A DNA stretch of 64,000 bases, taken from Rhodothermia bacterium (GTDB taxonomy: Bacteria > Bacteroidota > Rhodothermia > Balneolales > Balneolaceae). Below, piece after piece: positions 4,386 through 54,854 of this stretch. Each line of letters begins with the position of its first letter. The first letter of the stretch is position 1. The notes beneath the pieces are model-generated. The model did not search any database. It was not told the DNA's origin and saw only the letters and a program-made list of their open reading frames with translations. Where the stretch lies: positions 62,001 to 126,000 of the forward strand of contig JAUICM010000002.1 in the NCBI GenBank assembly GCA_030427885.1. The letters are read 5' to 3'. The position numbers and the translations under genes were made by a program.

Positions 4386-6092
4386 ATGACTCACTCAAGA
4401 TTTATAAGACTTCAACTCACTTTTGTAGTATTGCTATTAATTGCTCCACAGTTAATAGCACAAGTTAACCTAACCAGTGAATACCTCATCGACCCTGAAT
4501 TGGGGATATCCGCGGCCGACACAAGTGCCAGATTTTGGTTCGATTCATTTGACGAAACCGAAGGCGCTTTTTTTACAAATGTTGCCCGAAATGGTATCCC
4601 CAGTGATGATGAAAAACAAATGATCACCCAGTCACAAAATGCCTATGGTATGGCACGGGCTTTTCAACTTACCGGAGATACAACTTTTCTGGACTATGGG
4701 CGAAAAGCGCTCGACTGGATGTATGCGAATATGTGGGATACTACCTACGGAGGGTGGTTAAAAAATAGTAATTCAAAGAGTGCTTTCGATCACCATTATG
4801 CTCAGATCGGTCCTTCTGCCATGTTTGAAGCAGGAAATGACTCTGTTGACTGGGAATGGTTCATGAAAGGCCACGATGCTGATCAAAATCTTTGGGATGA
4901 CCGGGAAGATTATTTTGGATATTTCGACAATGCAAATCTTGACTGGTCGGGAAAAGATGGGAAAACATTTGGTTCTACAGTTGATGGCATAACTACACAT
5001 GCACTATACCTTTACTTAATGACCGGCGATGAGGAACATAAAGAGCGACTTCTGCAACTTGGAGATATCATTGTTAATTATTTAGTGCCTTCCATGGATG
5101 AGATGGATTTTGGCTTTAATGAAATATATGACAGCGAATGGGGATGGAATCCGGAAGGTGGATGGTGGGGCGGTGGCGGACGCTTCGACTTTACCGGACA
5201 TATTTCCAAAACCGCATGGTGTCTTGCACGGATTTATCAGGTTGAGCCCAAACCTGAATACCTTGAAGGTGCTAAGAAAATTCTCGATGATGTATTGGCC
5301 AAAGAAGATCAGTACAATGAAAAAATAAGCCAGTGGTGGGAATATGAAGAAGGTCTCACTTCCGGAATCATGAATTATTATCTCACCGGTAAAGACGAAT
5401 ATCTGGAATTTGCTGACCGACAATTAAACCTGATGATTGATAACCTTTGGGATCCTGACTATGGTGAATTCTATTTCTTCAACGATAATGATCATAAAGG
5501 ATCTTATTACAAAACGAGTTATCACTCCGTGGAAATGTTCTACTATATATATCTGTACGGCAACTTGTACCTGTATAATGAACCTGTTTCCCTGTATTAC
5601 AGAATTCAACCCTCATCTGTGGAACGTGAAATTTCTTTGTACCCACTTGCCTTTTTTGATAGCCTGCTCACTGTTACAGAGGTTTCAGTGGATGGAATAG
5701 CATTCAATAATTTTGACGGGCAATCACGTACACTCACTATTGCTCCCGGCGAAGGCGGAGTCTTCAAAGCTACTTTTAAGTCAACTGGTACAATTACTTC
5801 TAATGAAGATGAAATTACCCAGGCCCCGCTCAATTTTGAATTATTTCAGAACTATCCGAACCCGTTTAATCCAACAACCGATATTACTTATTCCGTTACA
5901 AACACCTCGAATCTCACTCTGGAAGTTTATAATCTTCTGGGACAAAAAATTCGAACCCTTGTTAACAAAATACATTCTCCCGGACAGTATCAGGTCAGGT
6001 TTGATGCTACCAATCTGACAAGTGGAGTTTATTTTTATGTATTGAATTCAGGCGGGAAATCGGAATCCAGAAAAATGATCTTACTGAAATAG
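4386..6092 (+). CDS. Secreted AGE-family (N-acylglucosamine 2-epimerase-like) sugar isomerase with T9SS tail
   Basis: 568 residues. A signal peptide (cut after LIAQ near 26) precedes an (alpha/alpha)6-barrel domain of the AGE / cellobiose epimerase superfamily (about 40-400), rich in aromatic motifs such as GWNPEGGWWGGGGRFD and with conserved histidines in FDHHYA and YKTSYHSVE. The C-terminus is a T9SS type A sorting domain with NYPNPFNP at 489-496. Most AGE enzymes are cytoplasmic, so an exported, surface-delivered member is less usual. A secreted thioredoxin-fold-free (alpha/alpha)6 barrel could also be a glycan lyase or hydrolase relative, so substrate and reaction stay open. Monocistronic, ended by a large hairpin. 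Confidence 0.8.
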   Translation: MTHSRFIRLQLTFVVLLLIAPQLIAQVNLTSEYLIDPELGISAADTSARFWFDSFDETEGAFFTNVARNGIPSDDEKQMITQSQNAYGMARAFQLTGDTTFLDYGRKALDWMYANMWDTTYGGWLKNSNSKSAFDHHYAQIGPSAMFEAGNDSVDWEWFMKGHDADQNLWDDREDYFGYFDNANLDWSGKDGKTFGSTVDGITTHALYLYLMTGDEEHKERLLQLGDIIVNYLVPSMDEMDFGFNEIYDSEWGWNPEGGWWGGGGRFDFTGHISKTAWCLARIYQVEPKPEYLEGAKKILDDVLAKEDQYNEKISQWWEYEEGLTSGIMNYYLTGKDEYLEFADRQLNLMIDNLWDPDYGEFYFFNDNDHKGSYYKTSYHSVEMFYYIYLYGNLYLYNEPVSLYYRIQPSSVEREISLYPLAFFDSLLTVTEVSVDGIAFNNFDGQSRTLTIAPGEGGVFKATFKSTGTITSNEDEITQAPLNFELFQNYPNPFNPTTDITYSVTNTSNLTLEVYNLLGQKIRTLVNKIHSPGQYQVRFDATNLTSGVYFYVLNSGGKSESRKMILLK

Positions 6093-23984: not shown

Positions 23985-24806
23985 TCAAGCCTGAGAGAAA
24001 TAGTCTAAAAACTTATTACTTACTAAATACAGAGCTAGTAAAGATATTATATAAAATAATATAGGAAATAATATGATATCTATATTATGAGTAACACTAA
24101 AAACTATCAACAAATATTGGTAAGAAATATTAATCGGGTCAGGTAAAATTTGTAATATATTCTTTAACGTTTCTCCCCATTTAAAATCTATATATATGCT
24201 GTTAAGTATATATGGAATTACAGATGCAAAAATAATAATCAAAACTGTAAAGAAATTAGAAATAATTACTTTTTTAGTGATGAATGAGATTAAATCAAAT
24301 ACAGTAATAATTAGTATAGTTGCGAAAAAAAGTATATAGATATATGTAATTAATGTATAGACAAAAACAGAATATTTAATTGCAAGTAGAAAAACAACCG
24401 GTATAATAAAAATAGTTCCAAAAAGTAAGGCATCTACGTACCTTCTAAAAGTATACAGAAAATAGATTTTACGACTATTAATGCCCGATGCATTTAAGAT
24501 TCTAATTGTTGCTCGATTAGTAAAAATTGCTCCTCTTATTCCTAAGATATGGATTTCAAAAAGATAAAACATGCAAACCATAAAATTTATCAATGAAATA
24601 AATGTACTAATTTCAACATCTCTATACCCTCCAAACTTAATCGAATCTGGAACTGTATTTTCAACCCATGTTATTTCATAGAAAAGACCTATATACAACA
24701 GAATTACCAAATAAAAAAAACTAATTAAAGTAAATGTAATTTTATTGATCTTTAGACTTCCAGAAAGACCCTTTGATATTTTATAGTATTCACCTATTTT
24801 TATCAT
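23985..24806 (-). CDS. ABC transporter permease of the peptide island
   Basis: 273 residues, six hydrophobic segments (near 28-48, 68-92, 118-140, 150-176, 186-210 and 230-268), fitting an ABC-2-type permease half. The first cytoplasmic segment is basic (MIKIGEYYKISKGLSGSLKI). There is no large extracellular loop, so a MacB-type protein is unlikely. The start codon overlaps the ATPase stop by one base (TAATG), so the two are coupled and should form one transporter. Extremely A+T-rich. No close family recognised. Likely cargo by context is the small cysteine-rich peptide or something that the peptide affects. Confidence 0.75.
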   Translation of the reverse strand: MIKIGEYYKISKGLSGSLKINKITFTLISFFYLVILLYIGLFYEITWVENTVPDSIKFGGYRDVEISTFISLINFMVCMFYLFEIHILGIRGAIFTNRATIRILNASGINSRKIYFLYTFRRYVDALLFGTIFIIPVVFLLAIKYSVFVYTLITYIYILFFATILIITVFDLISFITKKVIISNFFTVLIIIFASVIPYILNSIYIDFKWGETLKNILQILPDPINISYQYLLIVFSVTHNIDIILFPILFYIISLLALYLVSNKFLDYFSQA

Positions 24807-25510
24807 TATATCAAATTTATTATATAATCAATTTTTAATGATTTATTATTTTTTATTTCTTTAGTTATTAATCCATCCTTCATACATATAATTGTATTAA
24901 TTTTATTACTAATTTTATCAAGTTCATGACTGATAATAACTACAAGTTTCCCATTTTCTGCTTCAGCACCAAGAATCATTAATAATTTTTTTTTATTTAA
25001 AATGTCTAATCCTTCAAAAGGTTCATCCAATATGATAACTTCTGATTCAATCGAGAATGCAATGAGAAGCATCACTAGTTTTTTTGAACCTTTTGATAAT
25101 TCACCAAATGTTTTACCCTTAACCTGATTAAGATCAAATTCTTCTTCTAACTTAGAAATTAAATCTTCTCTATATCTTTTCTCTTGACGAGACAGTATTT
25201 CAAAACTCTTTAAATAATCTTTTACCTTTAACTGATCAGGAACTGTTTCAATTTCTGGTAAATATGATGCTGTCGGATTTTCCTCAAAAATTTCCCCCTT
25301 TCTAATATTTACTTTTCCAGAATATTTATTCTCAATACCTAAAATGCAGTTCATTAGGGTTGACTTACCAGCTCCATTCCTCCCAATAATCAAGTAAATT
25401 TTTCCAGAAAATAGCTCTGCTGATACATTATTTAATATAATGTTATCTCCCTTCTTAACACTTACCTTATCAATGTTAATTTTAAATTTGTTATTGGATT
25501 TTATAGTCAT
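24806..25510 (-). CDS. ABC transporter ATP-binding protein of the peptide island
   Basis: 234 residues. Walker A GRNGAGKST at 43-51, signature region FGELSKGSKKL at 135-145, Walker B VIILDEPFEGLD at 158-169 and an H-loop in VVIISHELD near 197 are all visible. The signature reads LSKGS in place of LSGGQ, a modest departure seen in ABC-2/bacitracin-export type ATPases. Its start lies 20 bases inside the end of the propeller gene. The 60 bases from 24841 are only 15% G+C by my count, against 47% for the 60 bases from 22921 in dnaE. Powers the permease encoded next. Confidence 0.9.
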   Translation of the reverse strand: MTIKSNNKFKINIDKVSVKKGDNIILNNVSAELFSGKIYLIIGRNGAGKSTLMNCILGIENKYSGKVNIRKGEIFEENPTASYLPEIETVPDQLKVKDYLKSFEILSRQEKRYREDLISKLEEEFDLNQVKGKTFGELSKGSKKLVMLLIAFSIESEVIILDEPFEGLDILNKKKLLMILGAEAENGKLVVIISHELDKISNKINTIICMKDGLITKEIKNNKSLKIDYIINLI

Positions 25511-26438
25511 ATATCGAAATCCTGCTAAGTGTATCTTCCAGTGCTATTAACTGACTATTTGTCAAAATCTTAAAGTCATTAATATATATTGGGACGTAAT
25601 AACTATATTTATATTTAGTTGAAATTGCTGAAAATACATGCCCAATTTTTCTCTTATCTTTAGTTTTTGTTGAGCCTAAATTATAAAAGAATACATGTAA
25701 TGAACTATCTACCAATGAAAGGTTTTTGGTAGCTGTAATTATAGAATCTCTTTCCCCGATAGGTAAAGTAACTCGCTCAACCATAGCGTTATTCTCCCAC
25801 CGAAACAAAACCGGTCTAAACAAATAGGATACAAACAATGTTTCTTCATAGGAAATAATTCTCTTGAAAATATCTAAATCAAAAGGTTGAGAATCATCAA
25901 AACTAAATGATTTTTCAATATTACCATTGAGTTCCATTTTTTGAACTAAATTTCTATTACTAAACAAAATTATTATTTGTTCATCTTCAATGCATCCTAC
26001 TTCATACGGAATCCCTTCTAGATTTAGAATATCTTTTAAATCTAGATTTTCATCATAGATTTGTAGTCTCGGCAATGACCAATCATACACAATAATACTG
26101 CCTCTACAAGCAATCAAATTTGCATTATGTTCTATCAACAATTCTCCCGGACCTCTTCCACTTCCACCTACTCTTTTTATTAAACGGCCATCCTCATTAA
26201 ACATTAATATCTGAGAGCTATATTTATCAAGAGCATAAATATTACCAATTGAACTCTTAGATACAGCTAAGAAAAAGTAGTCTTGATCAAAAAGCTTTAT
26301 TGATATTTTCTTCTCTAAACTTAATTTTTTTATTAAAATATCGCTTTGTTTTAACTCAATATCTTTTATTTCATTAGCACTTGATAATGTGCACCCCACT
26401 ATCAAGAAAAGAACCATATAAATTTTCTTTCTTTTCAT
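25491..26438 (-). CDS. Six-bladed beta-propeller lipoprotein of the peptide island
   Basis: 315 residues from the ATG at 26438; a longer in-frame start at 26507 would overlap the peptide gene. The N-terminus MKRKKIYMVLFLIVGC fits a lipoprotein signal with Cys16. Blade-like repeats follow, with AVSKSSIGNIYALDKYSSQ, the hallmark GSGRGPGEL turn, and IIVYDWSLPRLQIYDENLD. This matches 6-bladed beta-propeller proteins (DUF5128 group) of Bacteroidota, of which 53703-54854 encodes a distant relative in this window. Likely surface or periplasmic. It overlaps the ATPase gene by 20 bases, so it belongs to the operon. Its role could be to bind, receive or protect against the peptide; this is inference. 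Confidence 0.8.
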   Translation of the reverse strand: MKRKKIYMVLFLIVGCTLSSANEIKDIELKQSDILIKKLSLEKKISIKLFDQDYFFLAVSKSSIGNIYALDKYSSQILMFNEDGRLIKRVGGSGRGPGELLIEHNANLIACRGSIIVYDWSLPRLQIYDENLDLKDILNLEGIPYEVGCIEDEQIIILFSNRNLVQKMELNGNIEKSFSFDDSQPFDLDIFKRIISYEETLFVSYLFRPVLFRWENNAMVERVTLPIGERDSIITATKNLSLVDSSLHVFFYNLGSTKTKDKRKIGHVFSAISTKYKYSYYVPIYINDFKILTNSQLIALEDTLSRISIYDYKIQ

Positions 26439-26490
26439 AAAAATTGAAGAGAGAAATGGGATTTTAGAACCATCTCTCTCTCTTACTTTT

Positions 26491-26712
26491 TTAGAACCAA
26501 CTGGCAATTGTACATCCTGCTTCAGCTACTGCACACCCGCCTTTACAAATATTTCTAGATGCACCATCCCAAAAAGTATCTCCACTAAAATTTTTGTCAC
26601 ATCTAGCATAACAGCCATCTGCTTTTTCAAGACAAGTTAATTCTGCTTTTACATTCTTTGGAAAAGCTGATAATGTCATCAGTATCAACGTAAGAATTGT
26701 TAGCTTTCTCAT
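26491..26712 (-). CDS. Secreted cysteine-rich peptide with mirror-symmetric cysteines
   Basis: 73 residues. A Sec signal peptide (MRKL basic start, hydrophobic core, cut after VKA at 23) leaves a mature peptide of 50 residues. The six cysteines are at 27, 34, 38, 56, 60 and 67, spacing C-x6-C-x3-C-x17-C-x3-C-x6-C; each mirror pair sums to 94. That pattern fits two antiparallel helices stapled by three stacked disulfides (27-67, 34-60, 38-56), as in helical-hairpin peptides. The turn NFSGDTFWDGAS is rich in Gly/Asp/Trp. A good Shine-Dalgarno (AGAGAGGA) precedes the ATG. The neighbouring propeller and ABC genes follow at once. I do not recognise the family; toxin, bacteriocin or signal are all possible. 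Confidence 0.75.
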   Translation of the reverse strand: MRKLTILTLILMTLSAFPKNVKAELTCLEKADGCYARCDKNFSGDTFWDGASRNICKGGCAVAEAGCTIASWF

Positions 26713-26833
26713 AATAATCCTCTCTAATTTAATTAGTATTGACCACCAGATTTCCCCAGCAGTGTTCTTTTTTTAATTTATTATTACAAGCCTTATCCAC
26801 AAGTATATTAAATATCTAATTTGTGACATTTCC

Positions 26834-27169
26834 TTAAAGCACCTCATCTTTATATTGTTTTAAAGTCATTCCGCAATGAAATACTAAGTACTTATGAAGA
26901 GCCTTTTCATCAGTAAAACCTAAGTTTATTGCAATCTTGTATCCTATTGCTTCAGGATCCTTTACAATTTCTTTTGTAATAGACCTTAACCTAAACTCTT
27001 TCAAATAAATTTTCGGATTGACTCCAAACTCTTCTGTGAATCTTCTTGAAAAATATGCTCGCGAATAGCCAACCGCTTCAGCCCATTCTGAAACGGTGAG
27101 TATTTCCATTCCTCTTTCTTCGAGTATTTGAACTGCCCTAGAAATACCCTCTTTTTTCCTCTTCTCCAT
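26834..27169 (-). CDS. Stand-alone AraC-type DNA-binding protein
   Basis: 111 residues that consist almost wholly of an AraC/XylS DNA-binding domain: first helix-turn-helix in LTVSEWAEAVGYSRAYFSRR (about 24-43), linker helix EFGVNPKIYLKEFRLRSI, and second helix-turn-helix in YKIAINLGFTDEKALHKYL (about 77-95). No sugar-binding or sensor domain exists, so the ligand, if any, is not sensed by this chain. It is first in line on the minus strand, 121 bases before the peptide gene, and shares the A+T-rich composition; it is the natural regulator of the peptide-propeller-ABC operon. Confidence 0.85.
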   Translation of the reverse strand: MEKRKKEGISRAVQILEERGMEILTVSEWAEAVGYSRAYFSRRFTEEFGVNPKIYLKEFRLRSITKEIVKDPEAIGYKIAINLGFTDEKALHKYLVFHCGMTLKQYKDEVL

Positions 27170-27903: not shown

Positions 27904-28386
27904 ATGAATGGCTTCCGGTCCTACGCTGCAATAGCGGATAATGATGATGAACAAGAACTGCTTAAACTGACCCGCAAGATCGAAACGGGCTTTCCCTCTC
28001 CGGCGGGAGATCACCTGGAAAAAGCCCTGAGCCTGGAGGATCTGATCGTGCGCCGGCCTACTTCTACCTTCTATGTGCGCGCCGAAGGTGAGGCCATGAA
28101 GGCTTCGGGCATCCATCCCGGCGACATCCTCGTGATCGACCGCTCCCTCACGCCGCGCAACGGCTCCATCGTGATCGTGACTTTATGCGAGGAGGTCATC
28201 ATTCGGCGGCTCATCAAAAAGGGAAGCCGGGTATTCCTCGCCTCCGACGACCTGCGTTACACGCCCATCCCCATCAGGGAGGAAACCGACTGGATGATCT
28301 GGGGCGTGGCTACGCATCTGATCCATAAGTTCCGGGATAAAGTGGAGAAGGATAATGAGGAGGGGGAATATGAGTATCAGCTTTGA
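27904..28386 (+). CDS. umuD: UmuD homologue lacking both catalytic residues
   Basis: 160 residues. The alignment to UmuD is clear without gaps through the core: GFPSPAGD (29-36; UmuD cuts just before GFPSPA), FYVRAEGEAMKASGIHPGD (57-74) against UmuD YFVKASGDSMIDGGISDGD, and IVIVTLCEEVIIRRL against IVIAAVDGEFTVKKL. The catalytic Ser60 position is Ala64 (codon gcc) and the Lys97 position is Arg101 (codon cgg). Family knowledge: S24 peptidases need this Ser/Lys pair for self-cleavage to UmuD'. The protein should not cleave itself. The frame is otherwise intact, with good codon use and a strong ribosome binding site, so it is not obviously a pseudogene. umuC follows after 290 bases of repeats. 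Confidence 0.88.
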   Translation: MNGFRSYAAIADNDDEQELLKLTRKIETGFPSPAGDHLEKALSLEDLIVRRPTSTFYVRAEGEAMKASGIHPGDILVIDRSLTPRNGSIVIVTLCEEVIIRRLIKKGSRVFLASDDLRYTPIPIREETDWMIWGVATHLIHKFRDKVEKDNEEGEYEYQL

Positions 28387-28412
28387 GGTGCAACTCAGGC
28401 TTCCTTCTTATT

Positions 28413-28519
28413 GTCATCCCGGACTTGATCCGGGATCTGTGAGGGTTCACAGCGTTGTTAGCATTAATACTCAATCAACGTATCACTCACTACAGATCCT
28501 GAATCAGGTTCAGGATGAC
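28413..28519. repeat. Composite palindromic element (family A pair) between umuD and umuC
   Basis: Two inverted family A hairpins face each other: ATCCCGGA...TCCGGGAT (from 28413, opening GTC) and ATCCTGAA...TTCAGGAT (ending GAC at 28519). Inner arms GCGTTG and CAACGT form a smaller inverted pair. The same outer-plus-inner layout recurs at 37085-37214. After it, to 28676, there is a G/C-block repeat (CCCCTCCGTTGGAGGGG near 28558) and the umuC ribosome binding site GGAGAGGG. Confidence 0.75.
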
Positions 28520-28676
28520 TGCCTTAAATTTCTCGACGGGGTTAACCCATCCCTCAATCCCCTCCGTTGGAGGGGAAGCTCGCTGATCTTCTTCCTGTCT
28601 ATCAACAACGAGTCTTCCTCTCCCTGGGAAGCCTGTGCTGAACTGGCTTCCGTAAGAAAACAAAGGAGAGGGTCTC

Positions 28677-30008
28677 ATGTATCTTGATAACCTCCCATCC
28701 AACCCACCCTCTATCGTGTATGCGATGATCGATTGCAATAATTTCTATGCATCGTGCGAACGTGCCTTTGATCCGACCCTGGAGGGTAAGCCCATCGCCA
28801 TTCTGTCGAACAACGACGGCTGCGTGATCGCCCGCTCCCAGGAAGCCAAGGATGCCGGTGTTCCCATGGGGGCTCCGGAATTCAAGCACCGGAAGGAGTT
28901 CAAACAAAAAGGAGTAGTGATTCGATCTTCCAATTATGCGCTGTACGGAGATATGAGTCACCGCGTGATGGAAACCCTGCGCTATCTGGCCCACGACATC
29001 GAGGTGTACAGCATTGACGAGGCTTTTGCGGAACTTTCCACCAATATCTACGATGACCTTGATGAATACGGCCGGGTAATCCGCGAAACGGTTTATAAAT
29101 GGACGGGGCTCCCGGTATCTGTGGGAATAGCCACCAGCAAGACCCTCGCCAAGATCGCCAATCACATCGCCAAGAAAGACCCGGATCTGAAAGGAGTCTT
29201 CAGCCTGTGTGATCATCCCGAAACGGATCGCTATCTGGAACAAACTCCGGTGCAGGGCATCTGGGGCATCGGGCAGGGACTTACCATCCGGCTAAATCGC
29301 TATGGCATCAACAATGCACTTCAACTCAAAGAAACGGTAAGCAACAAAAAGTGGGTGCGAAAGCATCTGGCGGTGACGGGACTCCGGACGGTACTGGAAC
29401 TCAACGGCTTCCCCTGCTCTGGTTTGAGTAGTGGCCGGGATTCGCGCAAAGGCATCCTCACTTCCCGCATGTTCGGCAAACCCCTGTATGAGTTGAATGA
29501 TGTGCAGGAAGCTGTGGCTACCTTCATAAGCAGAGCAGCGGAGAAACTAAGGGCACAAAACTCAGTGGCTTCAGTGGTTCATGTAAACCTGATCGGAGAT
29601 AAATACGAGGACATTCGCCGGAAGTATAAATTCGGAGCGGGATATCCCCTTCCTGTTCCCACGGCTCATACTCCAACCATGATCAAAGTGGCAAAGGCGC
29701 TCACCCGACAACTGTTTGAGCCGGGACGCAAATACAAGAAGGCGGCGGTGATGTTCACGGGTATCGTCCCCAACAGCGAAGTGCAAATGGACTTATTTGA
29801 ACCTGCTTTGTTTACACAACGCCAGTTCCAGCTCATGGAATGCATGGACCGGATCAATTCGAAATTCGGACGAAACCATGCAGCCTTTGCTGCAACCGGT
29901 CTGCACAAGAAAGGCGATCACCGAAATAAATGGCTAATGAACCAGAACTATCTGAGTAAGCGTTACACCACCCGCTGGGATGAGTTACTGGTGGCGAAGG
30001 CGAAGTGA
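28677..30008 (+). CDS. umuC: Y-family DNA polymerase UmuC (Pol V catalytic subunit)
   Basis: 443 residues, full length. Catalytic motifs are intact: MIDCNNFYASCERAF (first Asp, steric-gate region) and VYSIDEAFAEL (Asp-Glu pair). The GIATSKTLAKIANHIAKK fingers/palm segment, helix-hairpin-helix QGIWGIGQGL and little-finger domain follow. QMDLF near residue 377 is a beta-clamp binding motif. It performs error-prone bypass of lesions with UmuD'2 and RecA. In E. coli umuD and umuC overlap; here they are 290 bases apart with repeats between, and the partner UmuD looks unable to self-cleave, so regulation of this polymerase is probably altered. Confidence 0.95.
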   Translation: MYLDNLPSNPPSIVYAMIDCNNFYASCERAFDPTLEGKPIAILSNNDGCVIARSQEAKDAGVPMGAPEFKHRKEFKQKGVVIRSSNYALYGDMSHRVMETLRYLAHDIEVYSIDEAFAELSTNIYDDLDEYGRVIRETVYKWTGLPVSVGIATSKTLAKIANHIAKKDPDLKGVFSLCDHPETDRYLEQTPVQGIWGIGQGLTIRLNRYGINNALQLKETVSNKKWVRKHLAVTGLRTVLELNGFPCSGLSSGRDSRKGILTSRMFGKPLYELNDVQEAVATFISRAAEKLRAQNSVASVVHVNLIGDKYEDIRRKYKFGAGYPLPVPTAHTPTMIKVAKALTRQLFEPGRKYKKAAVMFTGIVPNSEVQMDLFEPALFTQRQFQLMECMDRINSKFGRNHAAFAATGLHKKGDHRNKWLMNQNYLSKRYTTRWDELLVAKAK

Positions 30009-53702: not shown

Positions 53703-54854
53703 ATGCTACAGAAACTGAATTCTAAGATTTTTGCTTTAATACTGCTTCTAAGTATCACTGTATCCTGTAAATCCAAAGTCGAATCTGAATCTACTTTCGA
53801 AGAAAGAATATTCACCCCCATTGAAGACCTTAGGATAGAGGACACTGATGAGCATTTCATTGGTAAGATAGGCCATATTGCCATTGGCATGAATAATGAG
53901 ATCTATATCGCTGACGATGCTAAACTCACCATTCATATGTATGACGCAGAAGGCCATTTCCTGAAAGAGTTTGGAAGAGAAGGCCGTGGCCCCGGAGAGT
54001 TTCTTTATATCGGAGGAATAAAAACCTTCCCGGATGGCAGGCTTGCTACCTGGGATCAAAGAAACCAACGAATCAGTGTTTTTTCTTTTAACGGAGAATT
54101 TATAACCAGCCACAATGTTAATTCAGGATTAAACGGTATGGAACTCTTTAAGGTTAATCCAAACGGAGAATTCTTTGTTAAAAGAATGCTGCGAGCAAAG
54201 AGAAACGGTCGAAATAATGCAGATATTAGCATGGCATGGTTGCACGTATCCAAAGACGGACAGGTAACTGATACACTTCATATTCTTAAGGATCCTAATG
54301 AAAACCGTGGATTTGTTTACTTTTCGCCATCAGGCCCTTCTTTTAGTTTCATAGAGTTAACTATTTCCGCTCTAAGTCCATTCGGATACTTTATCGTAGG
54401 TAGGAATACCGACTATAAACTTGAGTTAAGAAAATCTTCAGGAACTGTTACCATATCTCATGATTACATCCCGGTTAAATTGAAACCCGAGGAAGAAACG
54501 CGATGGAAAAGATCCTTAAACAGGGTTGCTGCACAAGGGAATGATGTGGACACTAGCATACCAGATACTAAACCCGTTTATAAACAGATTCTGACTGATT
54601 CAGAAGGCCGCATCTGGATCCATAGATATACAGAAGCTGATTATTCTGAATCTCCTATTTATACTGAAGAAGGCGGCTGGTGGGAAGCGGCGGCTTTCGA
54701 TATCTTTTTGGATGATGGCAGCTTTCACGGATCTGTAAAATTTCCACATGGTTTTAATTTCACCGATGCTAAAGGGAACTTTGCTTACGGGGTGCTCACA
54801 ACAGATGATCTGGCGGAACATGTGGTGCGTTATAAACTTACTCCCAATCGCTGA
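53703..54854 (+). CDS. Six-bladed beta-propeller lipoprotein
   Basis: 383 residues. Lipoprotein signal with ITVSC (Cys22). The propeller repeats include GHIAIGMNNEIYIADDAKLTI, the hallmark FGREGRGPGEF turn (about 92-102), and the WDQRNQRISVFSFNGEF blade. Same broad family (DUF5128 / 6-bladed beta-propeller) as the protein at 25491-26438, but here in ordinary base composition and without a peptide or ABC transporter beside it. Function unknown; presumably envelope-exposed. Confidence 0.88.
   Translation: MLQKLNSKIFALILLLSITVSCKSKVESESTFEERIFTPIEDLRIEDTDEHFIGKIGHIAIGMNNEIYIADDAKLTIHMYDAEGHFLKEFGREGRGPGEFLYIGGIKTFPDGRLATWDQRNQRISVFSFNGEFITSHNVNSGLNGMELFKVNPNGEFFVKRMLRAKRNGRNNADISMAWLHVSKDGQVTDTLHILKDPNENRGFVYFSPSGPSFSFIELTISALSPFGYFIVGRNTDYKLELRKSSGTVTISHDYIPVKLKPEEETRWKRSLNRVAAQGNDVDTSIPDTKPVYKQILTDSEGRIWIHRYTEADYSESPIYTEEGGWWEAAAFDIFLDDGSFHGSVKFPHGFNFTDAKGNFAYGVLTTDDLAEHVVRYKLTPNR

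Follow-up and report, generated by a model that had tools for sequence, protein, structure and literature searches.

Gene content of the locus

The window, by which we mean the whole 64,000-nucleotide stretch of Balneolaceae DNA analyzed here, contains five minus-strand genes for a stand-alone regulator, a cysteine-rich exported peptide, a propeller lipoprotein, and the ATPase and permease of an ABC transporter; a terminator-like RNA hairpin is predicted in the gap that follows the peptide gene (Table 1). The source genome is 4.15 Mb in size and groups with Balneolaceae. The initial annotation had described these genes as tightly packed, and the open reading frame listing bears out both their positions and the overlaps claimed for them, 20 nt between the propeller stop and the ATPase start and 1 base shared by ATPase and permease. 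Its further statement that all five share an extreme A+T content holds for the region as a whole, at 28.5% G+C versus 44.1% in the rest of the window, where the lowest other 3185-bp stretch has 39%. The effect is graded, however, with the propeller (29%), ATPase (26%), and permease (25%) well below the less extreme AraC (35%) and peptide (36.5%) genes. Values of dN/dS between close relatives lie at 0.08-0.34, amounting to purifying selection on the homologous genes, so these reading frames are real genes.

Table 1. Features of the cassette, in window coordinates.
Feature	Position	Strand	Remarks
AraC/XylS-type stand-alone DNA-binding protein	26834-27169	minus	111 aa; two HTH, sensor domain absent; probable operon activator
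Sec-exported six-Cys peptide	26491-26712	minus	73 aa; mature part ~50 aa; predicted alpha-hairpin
Terminator-like RNA hairpin, peptide/propeller gap	26439-26490	minus	core stem ~26447-26482, then short T run
Six-bladed beta-propeller lipoprotein, DUF5128/NHL-like, exported	25491-26438	minus	ATG start, 315 aa, lipobox IVGC
ABC transporter ATPase	24806-25510	minus	ABC_tran E 2.3e-24
ABC permease	23985-24806	minus	~6 TM segments by hydropathy

The propeller reading frame was listed as 25491-26507 with a TTG start, but the ATG at 26438 is the more likely start because it yields a signal sequence with a lipobox, leaving a gap of 52 nt between the peptide and propeller genes. The protein scores 39.3 bits (E 5.6e-10) against Pfam DUF5128 (PF17170), above the curated cut-off of 22.9, and its AlphaFold model (pLDDT 80.5) finds NHL domains as its best PDB matches, with E-values to 6.8e-16, which together make it a DUF5128 member with an NHL-type propeller fold. 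A search of the propeller against plasmids gave no match. A second DUF5128 propeller lies in the window at ~53802-54185, and the genome holds at least 13. The regulator belongs to the AraC/XylS family by its double HTH DNA-binding domain, with matches to Pfam HTH_18 (E 1.3e-12, 48.2 bits) and HTH_AraC (30.6 bits). The ABC_tran assignment of the ATPase was confirmed in six further loci. The permease has no family in Pfam or NCBIfam, and a single-sequence search of 296 genomes returned one strong match (G092, E 2.3e-28); permease homologs could be aligned. Comparison with known anti-phage defense systems in PADLOC gave generic ATPase-domain matches only. On one side the cassette adjoins an S24-peptidase/UmuD-like gene and a gene for a UmuC-like polymerase (27904-30008); the other side has a dnaE-like gene, for DNA polymerase III alpha.

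Recurrence of the cassette in Bacteroidota

The search for the peptide, first as a single sequence and then with profiles, ignored gene context and took in family-, class-, and phylum-level sets of genomes. Significant matches carrying the cysteine pattern described below comprised 16 peptides in 15 loci, namely the window, two loci in G270 (Fodinibius halophilus), and one each in G405, G420, G092, G425, G419, G050, G058, G492, G004, G074, G385, and G243. The propeller is the next downstream gene in all 15, and genes for an ABC ATPase and permease then follow in each of the 12 loci uncut by a contig end; the contigs end within the loci of G425, G385, and G243, which were left out of this count. 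The neighborhood search that the initial annotation had proposed therefore comes out in its favor, since homologs of the peptide never occur without the propeller or, in complete loci, without the ABC genes. G092 has two tandem peptides on one propeller/ABC set, the G050, G058, G492, and G004 loci code for an ATPase with two permeases, and the G004 and G074 loci additionally hold MauE-like and thioredoxin-like genes. An HTH regulator precedes 9 of the 15 loci, of AraC type in the window, G405, G420, G092, G425, and G419 and of LuxR type in G004, G074, and G385. The AraC gene that had been counted as a member of the set is thus part of it in Balneolaceae only; elsewhere there is a LuxR-type regulator or none.

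The peptide family is sparse, with members in about 10 of 394 genomes sampled from the phylum; carriers outside the source genome include Fodinibius halophilus and a Balneolaceae MAG. Scanning the collection with a closer subset of the peptides returned four loci, none of them additional. Weak single-sequence matches (E > ~0.01) were set aside as chance, as were weak profile matches at L068-L070, L080, L082, L084, and L086; matches of both kinds have neither the cysteine pattern nor a propeller. No RiPP modification enzyme was recognized among the neighboring reading frames of the 12 complete loci, no C39 peptidase or dedicated exporter was seen adjoining the cassette, and no outer-membrane exit for the peptide was found in these searches.

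A palindromic six-cysteine peptide

The peptides, which have no model in Pfam or NCBIfam and no relative in the PDB, follow the pattern C-x6-C-x3-C-x(10-17)-C-x3-C-x6-C after a Sec-type leader in all cases but one. In 14 of the 15 intact peptides the spacing is palindromic, so that three nested cysteine pairs have identical position sums, and this mirror symmetry is kept across loop lengths of 10, 11, 12, and 17; if six cysteines were placed at random in 50 residues, such symmetry would arise with p = 0.003 per peptide. The exception, in one of the G270 loci (G270a), has lost both its first and its last cysteine, as would be expected if those two pair. In the G419 peptide the leader is frameshifted at a long poly-T run (L067, ~5849-5862), by sequencing error or real decay, and the cysteine spacing is unchanged.

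AlphaFold models the peptide as a helical hairpin, with helices at residues 20-41 and 47-72 and a pLDDT of ~90 over residues 31-60, and nested disulphides predicted at C27-C67, C34-C60, and C38-C56 would staple this hairpin together. A Foldseek search with this model gave no significant PDB match. A profile built from the short-loop members only finds both the window peptide (E 5e-5) and that of G050 (E 3.7e-9), so short- and long-loop peptides constitute one family. Mature peptides of the family are anionic or near neutral, with net charges of 0 to -9. Between the window and G405 the mature peptide is conserved best, at 60% versus 28-35% for the other proteins, and no positive selection on the peptide was seen; this combination speaks against a fast-evolving toxin.

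Expected dosage and divergence of the parts

The RNA hairpin between the peptide and propeller genes has a minimum free energy of -20.1 kcal/mol and a z-score of -5.46 in the window. At the equivalent position a hairpin with z <= -4 is predicted in 9 of 13 loci, its sequences mostly unrelated, and the gaps between the AraC and peptide genes give z -0.2 to -2.2. The loci G270b, G270a, G092, and G058 have no significant hairpin. A terminator-like structure behind the peptide gene suggests that more peptide than propeller would be made, and it makes a single uniform transcript over the set, for which the initial annotation had proposed a check by RNA-seq, unlikely.

In the high-G+C trio G050/G058/G492, the peptide, the propeller, and the first permease are strongly divergent in G492 (dN 0.25-0.29), whereas the ATPase, whose gene is situated between those of the co-diverging proteins, has a dN of 0.06-0.09, close to the background set by a flanking HD-domain gene (dN 0.05). 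In this one species trio, then, the parts able to meet the peptide diverge together and the cytosolic ATPase does not.

Related cassettes in the source genome and beyond

The window locus is one subtype of a multi-copy class of AraC/Cys-peptide/propeller cassettes in its own genome. This genome contains five more stand-alone AraC regulators related to that of the window. In 4 of the 5 cases the regulator precedes a short exported Cys-rich peptide, accompanied by a nearby propeller and by a gene of thioredoxin-like or DoxX-like type; one of these cassettes (C1, L112) has its propeller and its thioredoxin-like gene encoded on the opposite strand. The fifth regulator stands before a predicted lipoprotein of 230 aa. 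This group (L110:3117-4508; C5, ~495,100-496,500) has the regulator closest to that of the window, at 45% identity; the lipoprotein, whose Cys-containing C-terminal tail has the form CGQATADC...CAAKNC, resembles a peptide joined to a prodomain, and a membrane protein of 79 aa comes after it. Signal-peptidase-I-like genes were noticed by eye in or beside Cys-peptide/propeller cassettes at L112:3674-6285 and L167:5341-8186.

Further cassettes with peptides of other than hairpin type occur in G026, G077, G092, G061, G074, and G270. The ABC pair is present in 0 of 10 such cassettes versus 12 of 12 with the hairpin peptide (one-sided Fisher p 1.5e-6, a guide only, since the cassettes are partly related loci), and it therefore belongs to the stapled-hairpin subtype; the thiol-redox genes belong mostly to the other cassettes. 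In G074, a second cassette (L096:10631-14714) lies beside the hairpin one; it comprises genes for a MauE-like protein, a redoxin, a propeller, and one more Cys-rich peptide, with a near copy of the LuxR-type gene at each end. In several genomes cassettes of both types are found directly upstream of RND pump genes (L049; L166, L167, and L170), and the RND proteins at those sites are 53-73% identical, which suggests that the types may be exchangeable alternatives for one site beside RND genes.

A model for the function of the cassette

The account that we favor, tentatively and at somewhat short of even confidence, is that the cassette codes for an alpha-hairpin peptide, secreted and stapled by disulphides, and for dedicated proteins that handle it or protect the producer. 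In this model the AraC-type protein would turn the operon on, and the peptide would be overproduced by way of the hairpin 3' of its gene, exit by Sec, and fold in the periplasm into a helical hairpin with three nested disulphides. The exported propeller would be its cognate partner, and that the two bind each other is probable. The ABC ATPase and permease would recognize either the peptide or the peptide-propeller complex at the inner membrane and drive its removal or delivery, allowing the producer to tolerate or release it; we give an even chance to the ABC pair acting on the peptide at all, whether in export, immunity, or uptake. A functional parallel, without membership, would be a bacteriocin or signal peptide protected by a lipoprotein and transporter of the LanI and LanFEG type. 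An interbacterial role of the cassette is conceivable but somewhat doubtful.

This model draws on the invariable propeller and ABC neighbors, the tracking of the ABC pair with peptide type, the cysteine symmetry, the hairpin fold, and the co-divergence, and further on the RNA hairpin in 9 of 13 loci, the tandem peptides of G092 sharing one set, and the two-permease loci; nor was a RiPP enzyme, C39 peptidase, or dedicated exporter seen beside the cassette. Against it stand the charge of the peptide, unlike that of most membrane-lytic bacteriocins, and its being the best-conserved part with no sign of positive selection, unlike an arms-race toxin. In addition, Sec alone reaches only the periplasm, four loci have no significant RNA hairpin, and the co-divergence comes from one species trio.

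The strongest rival, although an unlikely one, is cell-cell signaling. If the peptide were a secreted pheromone, with the propeller as receptor, an ABC pair for its release or clearance, and the AraC or LuxR protein in the response circuit, then the regulators in front of 9 of the 15 loci, the expected peptide excess, the conservation of the mature peptide, and the several parallel cassettes per genome would all fall into place. The AraC regulators have no sensor domain, however, the cassette contains no kinase, and nothing was found that would link the envelope to the regulator. Less probable again is a reading modeled on methylamine dehydrogenase, in which peptide and propeller would join in a single complex or enzyme of the envelope whose maturation depends on dedicated redox or ABC factors; the MauE and CxxC thioredoxin-like genes of the sister cassettes and of the hairpin cassettes G074 and G004 would argue for it. 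The peptide has no conserved Trp or other cofactor-like residue, though, the propeller is closest to NHL domains and not to MauB, and a MauB/MauA-like complex is made less likely by the terminator-like hairpin, which argues against 1:1 dosage, and by the two peptides per propeller in G092.

There is a slim chance that the ABC pair works instead on the propeller, in the manner of NosD-NosFY, for delivery of a periplasmic cargo or cofactor, with the peptide as a scaffold or metal-binding chaperone. An ABC pair and a periplasmic repeat protein do share an operon here, the peptide is Cys-rich, and thiol genes occur in related cassettes, but no metal enzyme or cofactor gene was noticed in the neighborhoods read, and the symmetric spacing suits disulphides better than a metal site. 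The low G+C island could also suggest unrelated AT-rich genes thrown together on an acquired segment, an explanation with next to no probability that is refuted by the conserved gene order, which is the same in 12 complete loci whose genomes span low to high G+C, G050 and G058 at 60% among them.

Comparison with known systems

The databases and open literature that were searched bear out the statement of the initial annotation that no named system has this exact gene set; the open papers, to which the literature search was limited, contained nothing on DUF5128, on NVEALA by name, or on such a cassette. Lantibiotic and bacteriocin self-protection by a LanI lipoprotein and a LanFEG ABC transporter is similar in that a single operon codes for a small exported peptide, a lipoprotein, an ABC ATPase, and either one permease or two, with peptide in excess. 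The cassette differs in having a Sec signal in place of a dedicated exporter, a propeller in place of LanI, a Gram-negative host, and a peptide that is not cationic, and in having no modification enzymes. The ATPase scores 73.8 bits against the LanFEG model TIGR03740, below its cut-off of 309.75, and generic ABC models score higher; membership fails on the want of a LanFEG-level match and of modification enzymes and on the Sec export. The NVEALA peptides (PF14055) are likewise short, exported, and from Bacteroidota, and their profile matches none of 13 members of the present family and nothing in the source genome.

Methylamine dehydrogenase systems comprise the MauB propeller, Cys-rich MauA, and MauE/MauD. 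The sister cassettes resemble them in their propeller, Cys-rich small protein, MauE, and thioredoxin-like gene, and the maturation pair of MauE and a MauD-like thioredoxin is present in these and in G074. The window locus has neither gene, its propeller is six-bladed and NHL-like, and its peptide has no quinone-forming residue pattern. In sactipeptides such as thuricin CD, as in the present peptide, Cys recurs at every fourth residue within a hairpin of nested topology, but here the cysteines lie on both arms, and no radical SAM enzyme was noticed in the loci read. In alpha-hairpinins and the twin-CX3C small proteins (small TIMs), a helical hairpin is held by nested disulphides between two C-x3-C motifs, much like the clamped hairpin predicted here; the peptide has an extra outer Cys pair, is bacterial and exported, and showed no sequence relation to them in our searches.

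Secreted peptides with dedicated handling proteins are known already; the wider class of Cys-peptide/propeller cassettes stands a fair chance of being an undescribed kind. It is possible, if not quite as probable as the model above, that these cassettes represent a Bacteroidota-type secreted-peptide system for cell-cell interaction, several copies to a genome, in which an HTH-only regulator, a Cys-stapled peptide, and a cognate propeller would be combined with one of several exchangeable handling modules, ABC where the peptide is a stapled hairpin and thioredoxin/MauE where it has another Cys fold. The arrangement of a palindromic six-Cys peptide gene followed at once by those for a DUF5128-type propeller and an ABC pair is a signature by which a peptide family that lacks a database model can be recognized, and it offers a concrete, testable role for a large and functionally uncharacterized propeller family. 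Should the peptides act between cells, environmental bacteria would be a new source of disulphide-stapled helical hairpins.
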